Positions 25,607 to 32,641 of a stretch of DNA of 43,705 nt are shown piece by piece. Positions within the stretch are counted from its first letter, which is position 1. The number at the start of each line of letters is the position of its first letter. The notes under the pieces were generated by a model. That model saw only the letters and a program-made list of their open reading frames with translations, was not told the origin of the DNA and searched no databases. This DNA is from a virus, in the IMG/VR virus record IMGVR_UViG_3300039159_000815, positions 1-43,705 of that record; one strand, 5' to 3'. The position numbers and the translations under genes are program-made.

Positions 25607-26788
25607 TCATCCATCGGCCAGCAGTTCAGCTGCCAGAGTTCTGAGCGCATGCGCTGCAACCAAGGGGACCACGCCGTTGCCACAGAGGCGAAGCCGGTCC
25701 ACCCGGTGGGCCAGCCCATCAGCGCCTCGACGAACAGCGGGTTCAAGGTGCGGCGCACATCGGAGGTATCGCTCCCAGCCATCGGCGTCACCAGGACCTG
25801 GCGGCCAAGCAGGCCATTGACCGGCGTGTTCGCCAATGTCGTCGCCCCGTCCTTGTGATCCCGCGCAGTTGGCGTCATCCAGAGACGGCTGACATGGGTC
25901 AGGTCCGCTGTGCGGCGATTGCCCGCGCTTGGCTTGCAGCCGTCGTTCGCCATCGGTGTCGGCCAGTCGCGAGCCATGCGGTCCAGACCTTTCTCGTCCT
26001 TCCGCTCGCCGCCCCGGCTGCGGAAGCTGTCGATCTGCGGCGTCGGCCACAGGGCTGCTGTGGTCGCCAGGTTCATCCCGTGCTGGCCCGCTTCCTGCGA
26101 AGGGGTCGGCTTTGTCTGCCGGTTCTCGTTCGCGCTGGCACGAGGCGTCGGCCACAGCCGCATCATTTCCGTCCGGTTCCCGCCACTCGACCGGGTCCCA
26201 GAGCAGGCGCGCGGGGTCGGCCAACTCGTCCCCTTCGCGGGTGGCAAGGATGAACAGCCGCTCGCGCTTGTGGGGCGCGCCGACTTCCGCCGCCGTAAAG
26301 AGGCCTGCCGCAAGGCGGTAGCCCATGTTGACCAGTCCGCTGGCGACTTCGGGGAAGCCAAGGCGGAGATGATGGGCGACATTCTCGAGGAAGACGAAGG
26401 GCGGTTCGACCTCCCCGATGATGCGGGCGACATGCGGCCAGAGATGGCGTGGGTCTTTAGTGCCGAGGCGCTTGCCCGCGACCGAAAATGGCTGGCATGG
26501 ATATCCTGCGCTGACGATATCCACCGCGCCGCGCCACGGTCTGCCGTCGAAAGTTCCAATGTCGTCCCATACAACCGCTTGATCCAAGGCCGCGTCTTCC
26601 ATCCGCGCCACGAGAGTGGCTGCGGCGAAGGTTTCCCGTTCGACATAGCCCACAGCACGATATCCGGGGATGGCGATGGTGAGCCCGAGGTCGAGCCCGC
26701 CTGCGCCGGAGCAGAGGGAGAGGCCGAGCAGGCATGCGTCATCGGTGCCGGAATGTTTTCCGGAGGAAGGTACAACCAGGTCATGCAT
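25607..26788 (-). CDS. DNA (cytosine-5) methyltransferase
   Basis: A 393-aa C5-MTase. Motif I SGAGGLDLG (27-35, AdoMet binding), motif IV GYPCQPFS (catalytic C98), motif VI ENV (135-137), motif VIII PHKRERLF (172-179) and motif X GNGVVP (370-375) are all present, so the enzyme looks intact. The region from 185 to 345 is Asp/Ala/Arg-rich with repeated ADA/ADT motifs and serves as target-recognition region. Translation starts 4 bp after the N6-methyltransferase stop. It probably modifies phage or host DNA against restriction. No partner restriction enzyme is seen. The same DNA is open in the +1 frame along the full gene, with protein-like motifs in the second half (see findings). Confidence 0.9.
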   Translation of the reverse strand: MHDLVVPSSGKHSGTDDACLLGLSLCSGAGGLDLGLTIAIPGYRAVGYVERETFAAATLVARMEDAALDQAVVWDDIGTFDGRPWRGAVDIVSAGYPCQPFSVAGKRLGTKDPRHLWPHVARIIGEVEPPFVFLENVAHHLRLGFPEVASGLVNMGYRLAAGLFTAAEVGAPHKRERLFILATREGDELADPARLLWDPVEWREPDGNDAAVADASCQREREPADKADPFAGSGPARDEPGDHSSPVADAADRQLPQPGRRAEGRERSGPHGSRLADTDGERRLQAKRGQSPHSGPDPCQPSLDDANCAGSQGRGDDIGEHAGQWPAWPPGPGDADGWERYLRCAPHLEPAVRRGADGLAHRVDRLRLCGNGVVPLVAAHALRTLAAELLADG

Positions 26789-26792
26789 GGCC

Positions 26793-28142
26793 TCACGCGG
26801 CGGGAATCAAAGGAGAAGCAGTGGGTTCGGGCGCGGCGTCGACGTTTTCGCCCAACCGCTCGGCCCTCACCTGCGTGAAAGATCGGCCATCGCCATCAAG
26901 GAGCGCGTCGCGACCGGTCTCAGCCTGCCAACGCACGACAGCGACGTCGATGTAGGCCGGGCTGATCTCCATCGCGAAGACGCGGCGGCCATTGGCCTCG
27001 CCCGCCATGATCTGCGAACCCGAACCGCAGAACGGCTCGTAGCACAGCCCGCCGCGCGCCACATGCTGGCGCATCGGGATGCCGAAGGCGTCGAGCGGTT
27101 TCGGCGTCGGATGGTCGGGGCGGTAATCCTTGGCAAAACTCGGCAGCGCCCATGTCGAGGCCAAGGTTTCTTCCGCCACTTTCGGCGGGCGATTGCCCCT
27201 GATCCAGCCCATGAAGCAGGGCTCATGTTTCCAGAGGTAATGCGACCGGGTGAGAACCCCGCGGTCCTTCACCCAGATGATCTGCTGATGAACGAAGGCC
27301 CCGACCTTTTCCCAGCAGGCCTCGAGCATCGCCTGTCGGCGCGAGGCATGCCAGCAATACCATGCCGCATCTTCGGCAATCGCCTCGGCGACCGCAGCCG
27401 CGATGAAGCCGTCGTAGAGTTCCGCGCCCTGCGAGGAATCGTCCCAGGTCACGCCGTAGCTTTGCGACCAGTCCTTATTCCGCGTCGGATGGTTCGAGCC
27501 ATCATAATCCACCAGATAGGGCGGGTCAGTTGCAAACAGGATCGCGCGCTCGCCGTTCATCAGGCGGCGTACATCGGTCGAGCTGGTGCTGTCACCGCAC
27601 AGGAGCCGATGGTCGCCGAGGATCCACAGATCACCCGTCCGCGACGCCGGGTTGCGCGGCGGTTCCGGGATCACGACCGGCGGCACACTGGCACCGCTGC
27701 CTTCTTCGCCTTCGCCCTCGGGCACATAGGCCAGCAGTTTGTCCAACTCGCCGTCGGAAAACCCGACCAGCGACAGGTCGAAATCCTCGGTTAGCAGGTC
27801 GTTCAGTTCTGCTGACAACAGCGCCTCATCCCAAGTGCCGAGTTCCGTAAGTTTGTTGTCTGCGATCCGGTAAGCCCGCCGCTGCGCCTCGGTCAGATGC
27901 CCAAGCACGATCACCGGCGCTTCGGTCAGGCCGAGCTGTGTGGCAGCCAGCACCCGGCCATGGCCCGCGATCAATTCGCCGTCCTCGGCCACGAGGCAGG
28001 GCACCGTCCAGCCGAACTCCGCCATGCTGGCAGCGATCTTGGCGACTTGGTCTGCGCCATGCGCCTTGGCATTGCGAGCATAGGGCTGCAAACGCGCGAG
28101 CGGCCATTGCTCGATACGCTCCGGGGCGAAGCTGAGGGTCAT
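26793..28142 (-). CDS. ParB-N / N6-adenine DNA methyltransferase fusion
   Basis: A 449-aa protein. Residues about 10-130 are a ParB N-terminal-like domain (LQPYARNAKAHGADQVAKIAASMAEFGW, LIAGHGRVLAA). Residues about 165-430 are a beta-class amino-MTase: catalytic DPPY (206-209), HPTPKP (344-349) and AdoMet motif EPFCGSGS (369-376), with motif IV before motif I. The fusion is common on phages and islands. It likely methylates adenine in a short site; the site is unknown. AGGA precedes the ATG. First gene of an operon with the C5-MTase, just downstream of the TGGACTCCGG repeat region. Confidence 0.92.
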   Translation of the reverse strand: MTLSFAPERIEQWPLARLQPYARNAKAHGADQVAKIAASMAEFGWTVPCLVAEDGELIAGHGRVLAATQLGLTEAPVIVLGHLTEAQRRAYRIADNKLTELGTWDEALLSAELNDLLTEDFDLSLVGFSDGELDKLLAYVPEGEGEEGSGASVPPVVIPEPPRNPASRTGDLWILGDHRLLCGDSTSSTDVRRLMNGERAILFATDPPYLVDYDGSNHPTRNKDWSQSYGVTWDDSSQGAELYDGFIAAAVAEAIAEDAAWYCWHASRRQAMLEACWEKVGAFVHQQIIWVKDRGVLTRSHYLWKHEPCFMGWIRGNRPPKVAEETLASTWALPSFAKDYRPDHPTPKPLDAFGIPMRQHVARGGLCYEPFCGSGSQIMAGEANGRRVFAMEISPAYIDVAVVRWQAETGRDALLDGDGRSFTQVRAERLGENVDAAPEPTASPLIPAA

Positions 28143-28180: not shown

Positions 28181-28467
28181 TGGACTCCGGTTGCGGAATC
28201 CATGGCGGATTTCATTGGCTTCAAGCTGGACTCCGGAGTCCAGGGTATCCACCCCGGAGTCCACCAGCCAAGTGTCTGTTTTATTGTGTTATTTATGGGC
28301 TTCAGGGGTGGCTTCCCGAGGGGGTGGCTTCCCAAAAAAATCGCTCTGACGCTGGCGATATGCCGCGCTGCGCCCCCCAGCATACGTTTTTGGCCGGAAA
28401 GGAACCGGAAAACAATGGGTTAGGGGACTGGACCCCGGTTGGACTCCGGTTCGGACTCTGGGGTCCA
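28181..28467. repeat. TGGACTCCGG iteron-like repeat cluster
   Basis: Perfect decamers TGGACTCCGG occur at 28181-28190 and 28440-28449 (+), and inverted at 28254-28263. An 18-bp perfect palindrome, CTGGACTCCGGAGTCCAG, is at 28226-28243. Degenerate copies lie at 28429-28438 (TGGACCCCGG), 28452-28461 (CGGACTCTGG) and, inverted, at about 28458-28467. The last direct copies are spaced 11-12 bp apart, one helical turn, as for iterons or cooperative operators. Confidence 0.75.
28305..28333. repeat. Short direct repeat GGGTGGCTTCCC
   Basis: Two copies, 28306-28317 and 28322-28333, separated by 4 bp (period 16), followed by seven A. Lies inside the repeat-rich spacer; significance unknown. Confidence 0.5.
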
Positions 28468-29042: not shown

Positions 29043-29235
29043 TGCGCACCCCCAGCCCTTCGGGCCGCTTGCCATACAGCTTCTCGCCAAGCTGGCGGAC
29101 CAGTTCGCGCTCAGGCCAGGTCAGCCGCAGATCGTCGGCCGAGACCGCCAGCAGACCCTGTTCCTTCCAGCCGTCGCGCTTGACCTGATCGGGATCCCGG
29201 CGCTGGCCGCCGTAGCCTCTGGGGGTGAATCTCAT
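29035..29235 (-). CDS. Small hypothetical protein
   Basis: A 66-aa basic protein starting MRFTPRGYGGQRRDPDQVKRDGWKEQG. Its ATG overlaps the RuvC stop as ATGA and its end overlaps the DUF6362 start, so it is translationally placed between them. The C-terminus is helical (TWPERELVRQLGEKLYG). No family recognised; nucleic-acid binding is possible from its charge. Confidence 0.65.
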   Translation of the reverse strand: MRFTPRGYGGQRRDPDQVKRDGWKEQGLLAVSADDLRLTWPERELVRQLGEKLYGKRPEGLGVRNG

Positions 29236-29768
29236 GCCACACCTCCGCCGGTCTCGACAGCCCAGAGCAGCAGGGCGATGGCATCGGCCTCGTTGTCGTC
29301 GGCCGGGGTGAATCCGCGCGCACGGGCGGCCGCGATCATAGCGAGCTTGTCGGCATTGCCACGGCCCGTCAGGAATTTCTTGATCGTGCCCACCGGGACG
29401 CCCTGATAGGGCACGCCGCGCAATTCGGCCCATGAGGTCAGCGTGGCCATGAGGCCGCCGTAGACGTGGGCAGCGTCGGTGCCTGCGTGGCGCCGGACCT
29501 CTTCGAACCAGATTGACCCTATCGGTCCTGACAGCCGGTCCAGTTCATTCAGCCAGTTGGTAAAGCGCAGGTAGCGCATGCCACCGCCGTCGAAGCGGCC
29601 GGGCCGGAAGCTGGCGGTGCCGCTGGTGATCAGCCCATCGTAGCCGCGCAGAGCCCAGCCGGTGGTGGTGCCGAGGTCGAGGGCAAGGATTGTACGGGCC
29701 GTTTGCGGCGGCAGTGGCGATTCAATCCTTGCGCCGCGAACGGCGGTGGTCAGAGTCATGTCAGCCAT
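29232..29768 (-). CDS. RuvC-like Holliday junction resolvase
   Basis: A 178-aa RNase H-fold nuclease starting MADMTLTTAV, with AAAAGGAG ahead. Acidic residues fit the family: D31 in ILALDLGTTTGWAL, E89/E90 in IWFEEVRRH, and D158/D162 in PADDNEADAIALL. VGTIKKFLTGRGNADK is the usual DNA-contact stretch. It would cut branched DNA from replication or recombination before packaging. First gene of a three-gene operon preceded by the CAGTTTYGG hairpin region. The gene symbol is withheld because it is a phage relative, not the host RuvC. Confidence 0.87.
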   Translation of the reverse strand: MADMTLTTAVRGARIESPLPPQTARTILALDLGTTTGWALRGYDGLITSGTASFRPGRFDGGGMRYLRFTNWLNELDRLSGPIGSIWFEEVRRHAGTDAAHVYGGLMATLTSWAELRGVPYQGVPVGTIKKFLTGRGNADKLAMIAAARARGFTPADDNEADAIALLLWAVETGGGVA

Positions 29769-29936
29769 GGGTGGTCTCCTTTTCTGGTGGGATGGCTCGG
29801 GCGGAAGACGACGGCGATCATGTTCTTGGCGGAGCGGGTCGCCGTCGTCGGATTGAGTTGTTCGGGCAATGCAAGGCCACGCACGCGAAGCCCCCTGGGG
29901 GTGGGAGTGGGAGATCCCGCCTTGCGGCGTTCTCCC

Positions 29937-29966
29937 CCACCCCCGGAGGGGGTGGTTCACACCACC
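29937..29966. repeat. GC hairpin with alternative pairing
   Basis: CCACCCCC (29937-29944) and GGGGGTGG (29948-29955) form a perfect 8-bp stem. The GGTGG of its right arm (29951-29955) can instead pair with CCACC (29962-29966). The two pairings are mutually exclusive, so this could be a terminator or attenuator for leftward transcription; no T-run is visible. Confidence 0.4.
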
Positions 29967-30012
29967 CAAGTTGAACTCGGATATCAAACCATTGCTCTGG
30001 TTGATTATTTTC

Positions 30013-30188
30013 CAGTTTTGGACACCCAAAACTGCCTGTTCAGCCCAAACTGGTTGCAGCGCATCGTGTGTGGTTCGTGCGAAGTTCTGCAGGGGCAGTT
30101 TCGGATACCACCCGAAACTGGTTACAACTGGATAGCGCGCAGTTCCGCGTGCAGATGGCGAGGCAGTTTCGGCAAAGCCCCCAATCTG
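30013..30188. repeat. CAGTTTYGG / CCRAAACTG stem-loop array
   Basis: Stem-loop 1: CAGTTTTGG (30013-30021) with CCAAAACTG (30026-30034). Stem-loop 2: CAGTTTCGG (30096-30104) with CCGAAACTG (30112-30120). Stem-loop 3: CAGTTTCGG (30164-30172) with CCCAATCTG (30180-30188, two mismatches). Extra half-sites CCAAACTGG (30044-30052) and CAAACTGG near 30192 lie between and after. Arms are 9 bp, loops 4-7 bp. Confidence 0.75.
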
Positions 30189-30238
30189 GTTCAAACTGGC
30201 CAGTGCGCAGTTCTGCGGAAAGTGATCAGCCGAGACGT

Positions 30239-32641
30239 TCATGACCGCTCTCCCTCCGGATAGACCCAGACAAGAGGGTTCTCGACCTCGAGCAGCGCGC
30301 CGGTCTGCGCCGATTTGTAATGGCTGGGCAGCACGGGGACGCTGATCGGCGACACCTCACCGGTGTCGGGGTCAACCTCCTCGCCCTCCATGGGCATGAC
30401 CATCCCCTCGACGCACAGAAAGCCGAAGCGGGACCGTGACGCCCCGATCCCATAGGGTGAGCCGTCACGCACAAACTTGATAAACCCCTTGGTGGCCTGC
30501 ACCCCGATCCGACCGCGAACCGCGTCCTTTCCGCCAAGCCCGGCCTTATTCTCGAAGGATTCAGCGAATTGGTTGATGGTGTAGAGCCGCCCCTTTGCCG
30601 CCTCATCCAGCAGAATGCCAAGAATAATATCCTGCTTGCGGACCCGTTCGGCGTCGAACCTGGCGCCAACCTCGACCCGCACCAGCCGCTCGTTCATGGC
30701 GTTGATCTCGACCCACTCACCATTGACCTTGTCGATCAGCTTCGGTGCCAACGCGGGCCCATTGCGCAGCTCGATCTCCAGTTTGCGCTGGGGGCTTTCC
30801 TCGTCGGGACGGTGCAGGATCAGGCCAGAAGTATAGAACCCGCGCAGCGCACTCGCCCCGGAGAGCGCCAGAAATGGATCATCCTTGACCTGCTGCTTGC
30901 TGAGTTTTTTCGTGTGATGGGCGAGGATCACGCCGCAGTCAGGGTTGATGTGGTCGCGCAGAACCTCGACCCGGTCCTTCAGAAAGAACATCATCGCACC
31001 GTTGTCGTTTTCGCCGCCGCCGTCGGGCCCGCCGTCAAAGATATTGCGAATTGGATCGATGCAGATGATGTCGACCGGATCGATCGGGAAGGCCCGCCGA
31101 ATGGCCTCGGCCACGCGCATGCTGCCTTCGGTATCGAGCAGCATCTTCAGCTTCGGTGTCGCAACGAGGTTGTCGCGCGCGCCAGCCAAAACCCTTTGCG
31201 GCAGCGCAATCTGCTTCATCCGTTCGCGCAGGTAATGATACTGGATTTCGGCCTGCAGGTAGAACACGCGCAGGGGACGCGGCGGTGTGAAGTCGAGAAA
31301 CGACACGCCAGCGGCCATGTGGACGAGCCAGGAGATCAAGAGATCGCTTTTGCCGACCTTGGGCGCGCCACCCAGCACCAGCAAACCGCCCGGTGTCAGC
31401 ACGCGCGGCGCGATGATATCGGCGGGCATCGGGCTCGCGTCGTCAAGCAGCGCCCCCAGCGTGAAGGCTGGCATCTCATTGGGCACAGGGGCCGCGCTGT
31501 CGAGGCGGATCAGGGGTGCCCCGTGCTTTTCGACATGGATGGCCCAGAGCCGTTCGGACTCGCGCTTGAGCCGCTCCACCGGCCACTGCGGGCGCAGCAT
31601 GGCGGCGTTGTAACCGCAGATCGCCTCCCAGCCATCGCCTTTTGACAGCCGCCCGTCATGGACCATGCGGATGAAATAGCCGATCGCCGCACTGGCGCCC
31701 TCAAAGCGTGACCAGTCGTCCTGCCCGCCTTCGCGAACCGGGGTCACCAAGACCTCGTCGGAGCGAGGCTTGTCGGGGGCCACGAAATCCGGCTGCAATG
31801 ACACTCCCGGCGCGGGCGACATGTCGGCGACGGCCTCGATGAATTCGCCAAGATCGCGTTCCAGCGCGGGGTTCATTTCCACGATCCGAACTTGGGTCTT
31901 GAGGTTGTTCTTGTAATAGACCGAGCCTGCTACCCGGATCGGCTGATGGGCCGAACGGAAGTGCATGTCACCGCCGACCTTGGCCGCGATGTCACCGCGC
32001 AGGCGGCACACCCGGCGAATGTCATCGCCCTCGGCGGGCTCGCTGAGTTTCCACCAGACATGGGCCTTGCGCTGCCCCTCGGGCGTGACCCCTCCGCTTT
32101 CGACCACCATGGTCGGTGCGCCCAGATGGCGTTCGAGATGGGCCCGCTTTGCGGCAATATCGCCGGTGTCGATATCCACGACCACGGTCTGCATTTGCAG
32201 GATTTCAGCCGCCTTGGCCTGGCCCGGTGCTGCAACCGTGCCAGGTATAATGTAGACCGCCGCCCCCTCGCGTGACGCCCATGTGGCGAAGGTGGCCATC
32301 TTGTCGGGGGTGGCCTGATCCGCCTCTATCCAGATGTTGTGCGGGCGGCCATCGATGCCTTGGCCCTTGTCGATGAAACTGCGCACCGGGATCAGCCCGT
32401 CGCAATAGCCGAAGACCACCCCCATGAACTGGGCGATTTGCGCAGGGTCCGGCTCGTCGCCGAAGACATCAACCTGCGAGACCGCATCGTTGAAATCCCG
32501 CCATGGGTTGAAATGGACGATATTCTCCTTCGGAGTATCGTCGGGCGCCACATTTGGGCTGTCGGTGGTGTAGTCGTCTTTCATGGGCCTGTCCTCAGAA
32601 TTGCGGAGTCTCTCTGGATCGTCGGGAAGGTCGCCGCTCAT
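30239..32641 (-). CDS. Phage replication primase-helicase (RepB-primase + RepA-like ATPase)
   Basis: An 800-aa protein starting MSGDLPDDPE (ATG overlaps the nuclease stop as ATGA). The N-terminal half resembles RepB-type archaeo-eukaryotic primases: NIWIEADQ, VVVDIDTGD (about 153-161, metal-binding Asp), ESGGVTPEGQRKAHVWWKL. The C-terminal half is a RecA-fold RepA-like helicase: Walker A GGAPKVGKS (about 424-432), Walker B VDIICIDP (about 523-530) and AHHTKK (about 575). Priming and unwinding at the phage origin are thus joined in one chain. It is the last gene of the early operon, next to the stem-loop array. Confidence 0.85.
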   Translation of the reverse strand: MSGDLPDDPERLRNSEDRPMKDDYTTDSPNVAPDDTPKENIVHFNPWRDFNDAVSQVDVFGDEPDPAQIAQFMGVVFGYCDGLIPVRSFIDKGQGIDGRPHNIWIEADQATPDKMATFATWASREGAAVYIIPGTVAAPGQAKAAEILQMQTVVVDIDTGDIAAKRAHLERHLGAPTMVVESGGVTPEGQRKAHVWWKLSEPAEGDDIRRVCRLRGDIAAKVGGDMHFRSAHQPIRVAGSVYYKNNLKTQVRIVEMNPALERDLGEFIEAVADMSPAPGVSLQPDFVAPDKPRSDEVLVTPVREGGQDDWSRFEGASAAIGYFIRMVHDGRLSKGDGWEAICGYNAAMLRPQWPVERLKRESERLWAIHVEKHGAPLIRLDSAAPVPNEMPAFTLGALLDDASPMPADIIAPRVLTPGGLLVLGGAPKVGKSDLLISWLVHMAAGVSFLDFTPPRPLRVFYLQAEIQYHYLRERMKQIALPQRVLAGARDNLVATPKLKMLLDTEGSMRVAEAIRRAFPIDPVDIICIDPIRNIFDGGPDGGGENDNGAMMFFLKDRVEVLRDHINPDCGVILAHHTKKLSKQQVKDDPFLALSGASALRGFYTSGLILHRPDEESPQRKLEIELRNGPALAPKLIDKVNGEWVEINAMNERLVRVEVGARFDAERVRKQDIILGILLDEAAKGRLYTINQFAESFENKAGLGGKDAVRGRIGVQATKGFIKFVRDGSPYGIGASRSRFGFLCVEGMVMPMEGEEVDPDTGEVSPISVPVLPSHYKSAQTGALLEVENPLVWVYPEGERS

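Follow-up and report, generated by a model that had tools for sequence, protein, structure and literature searches.

A repeat array and the C-terminal domain of the adjacent primase-helicase diversify together at a putative replication origin of temperate phages

Initiators of the kind considered here are already known from P4, SaPI and PLE. As described in PMC4234260, P4 alpha is a single protein with a primase, a helicase and a C-terminal winged helix, and it binds the origin repeats, whereas RSF1010 employs RepA, RepB' and RepC, which comprise an iteron reader, a hexameric helicase and the RepB' primase, together with iterons and ssi hairpins. ORF904 of pRN1 joins an archaeo-eukaryotic-type primase (AEP) to an SF3 helicase and a winged helix, and an essential stem-loop lies just downstream of its gene (PMC4234260). 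SaPI Rep is described in PMC7581432 as an initiator helicase that uses its C-terminal domain to read iterons directly downstream of its own gene. For RepA of the PLE satellites of Vibrio, the DNA-binding domain covaries with the origin iterons in two types; cognate pairing was proven, domain swapping was inferred, and an origin-directed nuclease was proposed as the driver of swapping (PMC8263062). Finally, the section of PMC5862659 on PrimQH, of the PrimPol-PV1 supergroup, assigns it an AEP primase, a RepA-type helicase and a C-terminal winged helix suggested to serve origin recognition; data on origins or iterons do not appear in that section.

The window analyzed here is the whole of a 43,705-nucleotide stretch of viral DNA (IMG/VR record IMGVR_UViG_3300039159_000815) that carries tailed-phage genes for terminase, portal, head protease, major head protein and tail. 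A minus-strand primase-helicase gene of 815 codons ends in it with a stop codon at 30239-30241, and a repeat region free of genes extends from there to the start of a RuvC-like gene at 29768 (Table 1). Our favored interpretation, to which we assign a probability of roughly 0.8, is that the repeats are iterons of a phage replication origin read by the C-terminal domain of the initiator, and that the two form a matched cassette traded between phages.

Compared with the systems above, the locus shares individual features with each. As for SaPI, the iterons lie directly downstream of the initiator gene, and co-diversification suggests that a C-terminal domain reads them; however, the SaPI helicases are of the DUF927 and D5 classes, whereas ours is an AAA_25 RecA-like helicase in an AEP and RepA-type fusion from a tailed-phage family. 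The three-part domain order of P4 alpha is predicted to recur in our single protein, which may similarly bind its repeats, but the P4 primase is of the TOPRIM (DnaG-like) class while ours is AEP-like. A further cis region, crr, is present in P4; a second motif cluster of that sort was absent from the window in an exact motif scan of what may be an incomplete contig. Covariation of a DNA-binding domain (a predicted one in our case) with origin iterons is shared with PLE, where it involves two types and an N-terminal domain, in contrast to about 9-14 types, a C-terminal domain and far more exchanges here. The order AEP primase, RepA-type helicase and C-terminal winged helix, as judged from predicted structures, is that of PrimQH. 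A RepB'-like primase, a hexameric helicase, a proposed iteron reader and a hairpin near the iterons recall RSF1010, although the three separate proteins of RSF1010 are replaced by one fused protein and priming at our hairpin is putative. As in pRN1, a protein made up of AEP, helicase and winged helix is accompanied by an element that directly follows its gene; pRN1, by contrast, has an SF3 helicase and no iterons, as opposed to a RecA-like helicase and many iterons here; moreover, our repeats lack compensating changes, while a separate hairpin downstream covaries. The breadth of recognition types and their in-register switching within one phage family appear to be new, such switching being undescribed in the open-access literature searched.

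Table 1. Window coordinates of the putative origin and of the genes and domains beside it
Feature	Position	Strand	Remarks
RuvC-like resolvase gene	29232..29768	-	conserved 3' neighbor; does not track the motif
Conserved covarying hairpin directly past the array	29894..29949	-	candidate single-strand initiation or priming site
Iteron-like array, ~9-10 half-sites in three modules	29953..30238	-	from the primase-helicase stop codon to the conserved hairpin
AT-rich block, conserved CARTG..TTGAT core	29979..30012	-	window copy fails the strict IHF consensus
Module 3	30013..30052	-	CAGTTTGGG 30044-30052, CAGTTTTGG 30026-30034, CCAAAACTG 30013-30021
Module 2	30096..30130	-	CAGTTGTAA 30122-30130, CAGTTTCGG 30112-30120, CCGAAACTG 30096-30104
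Module 1	30164..30198	-	CAGTTTGAA 30190-30198, CAGATTGGG 30180-30188, CCGAAACTG 30164-30172
C-terminal domain, residues 641-781	30242..30664	-	proposed reader of the iterons; predicted to be a winged helix with a beta extension
Predicted recognition helix (helix 3), residues 686-699	30488..30529	-	GGKD at 684-687 marks the CAGTTT/AAGTTG motif groups
RecA-like helicase domain, AAA_25	30695..31474	-	resembles RSF1010 RepA
Archaeo-eukaryotic-type primase domain	31820..32461	-	resembles RSF1010 RepB' and S-2L PrimPol

Residues of the primase-helicase were numbered from MKDDYTTD. The AlphaFold model of the whole protein was of moderate confidence (pLDDT 65.6). Using Foldseek, its N-terminal part was matched to RSF1010 RepB' and S-2L PrimPol (AEP primase domain, E 2.9e-8 to 3h20 and TMt 0.81 for 6zp9), and its middle part to RecA-like ATPases that included RSF1010 RepA. 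The C-terminal domain modeled alone reached a pLDDT of 88.6 and a pTM of 0.81, with three helices and a beta hairpin arranged as a winged helix and followed by a beta extension. Its matches to solved structures were weak and mainly to Fur- and MarR-type winged helices (best E 0.37), Pfam returned weak LexA_DNA_bind matches in 3 of 74 members (best E 0.0088), and a profile search of solved structures gave a single, unrelated match. The winged helix, primase and helicase folds are structure predictions.

The preliminary description of this DNA had placed three copies of CAGTTTYGG-N4-7-CCRAAACTG just downstream of the replication gene, in a gene-free and partly AT-rich stretch, and these observations held. 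Perfect copies occupy 30013-30034 (gap of 4) and 30096-30120 (gap of 7), a copy with two mismatches occupies 30164-30188 (gap of 7), the gene runs on the minus strand, and GC content is lower in the array part than around it. No further copy with up to two mismatches was found elsewhere in the window, and exact CAGTTTYGG half-sites were confined to 30013-30172. The 43.7 kb contain five inverted repeats with perfect 9-bp arms and loops of 3-8 nt, two of which are copies from the array, and the array 8-mer occurred 8 times compared to a maximum of 4 in shuffles of the same stretch. Two corrections were needed: the array reaches nearly to the stop codon, thereby including the sites at 30122-30130 and 30190-30198, and beyond it, at 29894-29949, lies a distinct structured element with better conservation. 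In 31 relatives the half-sites of module 1 were kept, arm mismatch included. The module 2 pair was conserved best, with 93.5% of cells paired, while the middle site of module 3 was missing from most relatives.

Protein searches with the primase-helicase and RuvC yielded 130 loci with both genes (window counted), among which 99 intergenic regions were distinct; scanning bacterial genomes contributed 80 more loci, mostly from Rhodobacterales with some from Hyphomicrobiales, and the merged set analyzed contained 165 distinct loci. The family is one of temperate phages of these two orders, and the primase-helicase gene was present in 43 of 397 species genomes sampled from one host family. Annotated phages contained no DNA relative of the array, and Rfam gave zero matches. 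Searching plasmids with the replicon returned one close match, on a Shinella replicon of 4.6 Mb, and three that were distant and partial; no small plasmid with the same replicon was found in that search.

The repeat array that the preliminary description had suggested seeking beside RepA-like genes was present throughout the family, albeit with different letters: an 8-mer was repeated in all 99 distinct viral arrays, at 4-13 copies per array, a number that in most of them was unreached by any dinucleotide shuffle. Whereas the window motif is CAGTTTYGG, other arrays carry GAAATCTG, AACTCCTC, AGGACGAA, AACACGGA, ATGACARA, CCTCATCC, AAGTTGGG, AAACCGGA or others. Comparison of these sequences suggests that array and C-terminal domain diversified into at least nine recognition types, about 9-14. 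Site positions were retained across motif types while letters changed, with column overlaps of 0.69 and 0.65 for two broad layouts compared to null maxima of 0.38, although shared letters may raise the overlap figures since the alignment was built from the same sequences. Cassette exchange and site-by-site change in register both appear to have taken place. L257 and L094 have domains 99% identical and an array similarity of 0.98, and the L257 protein is 69% identical overall to that of the window. The weakest part of the motif-domain pattern is C-terminal-domain cluster 4 (L105, L106, L111, L172 and others), in which repeats are few and motifs mixed (GAAGTCAT, AGTTAGGT) while domains are alike.

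IHF-like WATCAANNNNTTR was found inside the array in most other motif types, at 2.44 per kb of array compared to 0.001 per kb of upstream DNA, and 83 of 87 occurrences shared one orientation. About half of the arrays contained such sites; the window type had a degenerate form only, with no strict match. DnaA-like boxes were present in 20 of 165 intergenic regions, and no GC-skew switch was seen at the array. A GTTCN7GTTC box at 30073-30087 raised the possibility of a LexA (SOS) control region, as it matches the alphaproteobacterial LexA consensus perfectly. It was nevertheless present in 5 of 165 arrays, 4 of which were those of the window and its closest relatives. Because it is common only to these relatives the resemblance is probably due to chance; a LexA operator was rejected as not conserved, and we give SOS control almost no credence.

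The motif followed the C-terminal domain and not the remainder of the protein. Identity of the window protein to those of L005, L006, L008 and L009, whose motifs differ, dropped from 82-100% (residues 41-640) to 35-66% (last 140 residues); relative to L002 and L004, which carry the same motif, it was 97-100%, the last 140 residues included. Across the 165 loci, array similarity correlated with C-terminal-domain identity (Spearman 0.52; partial correlation 0.53 given the core; 0 of 999 permutations, figures that serve as a guide and not as exact probabilities because the sequences are related), in contrast to 0.07 for the protein core. Motif similarity averaged 0.64 inside C-terminal-domain clusters and 0.05 across them, and array clusters agreed with domain clusters at an adjusted Rand index of 0.81, compared to 0.05-0.15 for the core. 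With nine motif labels, 61 label changes were required on the core tree, a count inflated somewhat by FastTree errors, and 8, the minimum, on the domain tree. Likewise, the mean array similarity of the nearest neighbor was 0.83 when chosen by C-terminal domain and 0.41 when chosen by core, and with domains more than 90% identical barred the values were 0.67 and 0.11, respectively.

The preliminary description had also offered repressor operators for the RuvC operon. The half-sites are inverted, intergenic and ahead of a co-directional operon, as operators for a regulator of that operon would be. The primase-helicase could itself be the autoregulator, and initiators often are. However, correlation with the motif ranged from -0.04 to 0.11 for seven neighbors (RuvC, DUF6362, ParB-methyltransferase, helicase and three upstream proteins), so that among the proteins tested only the C-terminal domain tracks it, and 8-13 sites exceed a usual operator. 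The proposal found no support in these comparisons, and we consider it quite improbable.

Adjacency of domain and array means that linked exchange alone would give some correlation. Hitchhiking of this sort, in which the two are exchanged as neighbors and without binding, would fit their contiguity and the frequency of exchange implied by the 61 changes on the core tree. Counter to pure linkage, the correlation began to rise at about residue 640, stood at 0.3-0.5 throughout the domain and ended at the domain boundary, while on the other side it was 0.25 in the leader between array and RuvC and 0.11 in RuvC (first data set). The coincidence of the upstream boundary with that of the domain, the coordinated, in-register letter changes across array sites, and the L254 locus described below all argue against exchange by adjacency alone, which we regard as very unlikely.

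When 20 loci were later added from a single host family's genomes, prediction from the domain gave the correct array group for 19, although many of these domains were 96-100% identical to known ones and L241 and L242 apparently repeat L197 and L216. The array group was right for all five later loci whose domains were 74-86% identical. The sole miss was L254, with a domain 57% like any other and an array that was nonetheless of the CAGTTT type. The sequence GLGGKD-IR, where the predicted recognition helix begins, is common to L254 and the CAGTTT and AAGTTG groups, and residues 684-688 may therefore form part of the specificity code. L254 also represents a natural test of the residues that set specificity.

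Recognition of the repeats as single-strand hairpins during replication was the other proposal of the preliminary description; such recognition has been proposed for the pRN1-type stem-loop origin. Folded as single strands of DNA, stems 2 and 3 score well (z -4.3 and -5.1), and pRN1 does have its essential stem-loop downstream of a comparable gene (PMC4234260). Stem 1, on the other hand, folded no better than shuffles. Lack of compensatory changes between the arms in relatives had been named as the result that would count against the hairpins, and this is what was seen: among 31 same-motif relatives, arm covariation was 0.034 compared to 0.035 in shuffles, stem 3 was paired in 37% of cells, and stem 1 had a conserved mismatch that left one pair unpaired in 29 of 31 rows. 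The three-hairpin layout was not retained by other motif types, and the hairpin that does covary lies outside the array. Single-strand recognition of the repeats is accordingly improbable, whereas the origin portion of the same proposal is well supported, if indirectly, by the co-diversification of array and C-terminal domain.

The covarying hairpin directly past the array had a covariation of 0.263, compared to 0.118 +/- 0.013 in shuffles, with 94% of cells paired, and was kept wherever the layout is CAGTTT or AAATCTG-like; a related element, with a weaker consensus fold, occurs around CCCATACTACGTATGGG in the other layout. A role in priming is a reasonable guess by analogy to RepB', to which the primase is similar and which acts beside ssi hairpins when it primes (PMC4234260).

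Under our origin interpretation, the initiator encoded directly upstream (AEP primase, RepA-type hexameric helicase and C-terminal winged helix) would bind the iterons as double-stranded DNA, its C-terminal domain being the part that contacts them. Binding would lead to helicase loading, and the AT-rich block would be bent and melted, probably with the help of IHF. The primase would then begin synthesis, perhaps at the conserved hairpin downstream. C-terminal domain and array would in this way constitute a matched specificity cassette, repeatedly swapped among related phages.

Origin-initiator specificity is known mostly from single pairs, and the present family provides 165 natural pairs of about 9-14 types. 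Since site positions are largely constant among them, the recognition code of a winged-helix initiator should be learnable from these pairs, and the same pairs make it possible to ask how change in one protein is coordinated with change at about ten scattered DNA sites. The family also offers compact, mutually distinct candidate replicons for Rhodobacterales. More tentatively, the lock and key may represent a fast-diversifying, horizontally traded specificity module, in which about ten sites per origin switch letters in register with positions kept and in which exchange is favored by selection for rarity (e.g., to evade enemies that target origins, or to avoid cross-talk in replication when relatives co-infect); we view this idea as plausible, albeit slightly on the doubtful side. 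Co-resident prophages shared a type in 3 of 15 pairs, compared to about 1.6 expected; there was no sign of incompatibility, as same-type prophages were not avoided within one genome.

Several other elements were observed. A perfect 10-bp inverted repeat (GACGACGGCG / CGCCGTCGTC, 23-nt loop) lies at 29807-29849, about 40 nt before the RuvC start, and was seen in many relatives of other motif types as well. In L064 and L081 an HNH homing endonuclease-like ORF, recognized by eye, is apparently inserted just after the RuvC gene start, and a small CxxC-pair gene (SHCAECG-like) is situated between origin region and RuvC in L009, L020, L073, L143, L149, L151 and L198, which represent several iteron types. 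The window also encodes a ParB-like nuclease fused to an N4/N6 DNA methyltransferase (26793-28142), adjoined by a separate C5 cytosine methyltransferase gene (25607-26788). A second repeat family, TGGACTCCGG, occupies 28181-28449 of the window, and TGGAYTCC arrays of 11-13 copies were found downstream of DUF6362 in L002, L004, L005, L085 and L087. This family is independent of iteron type, L005 having a different iteron and the same TGGATTCC.
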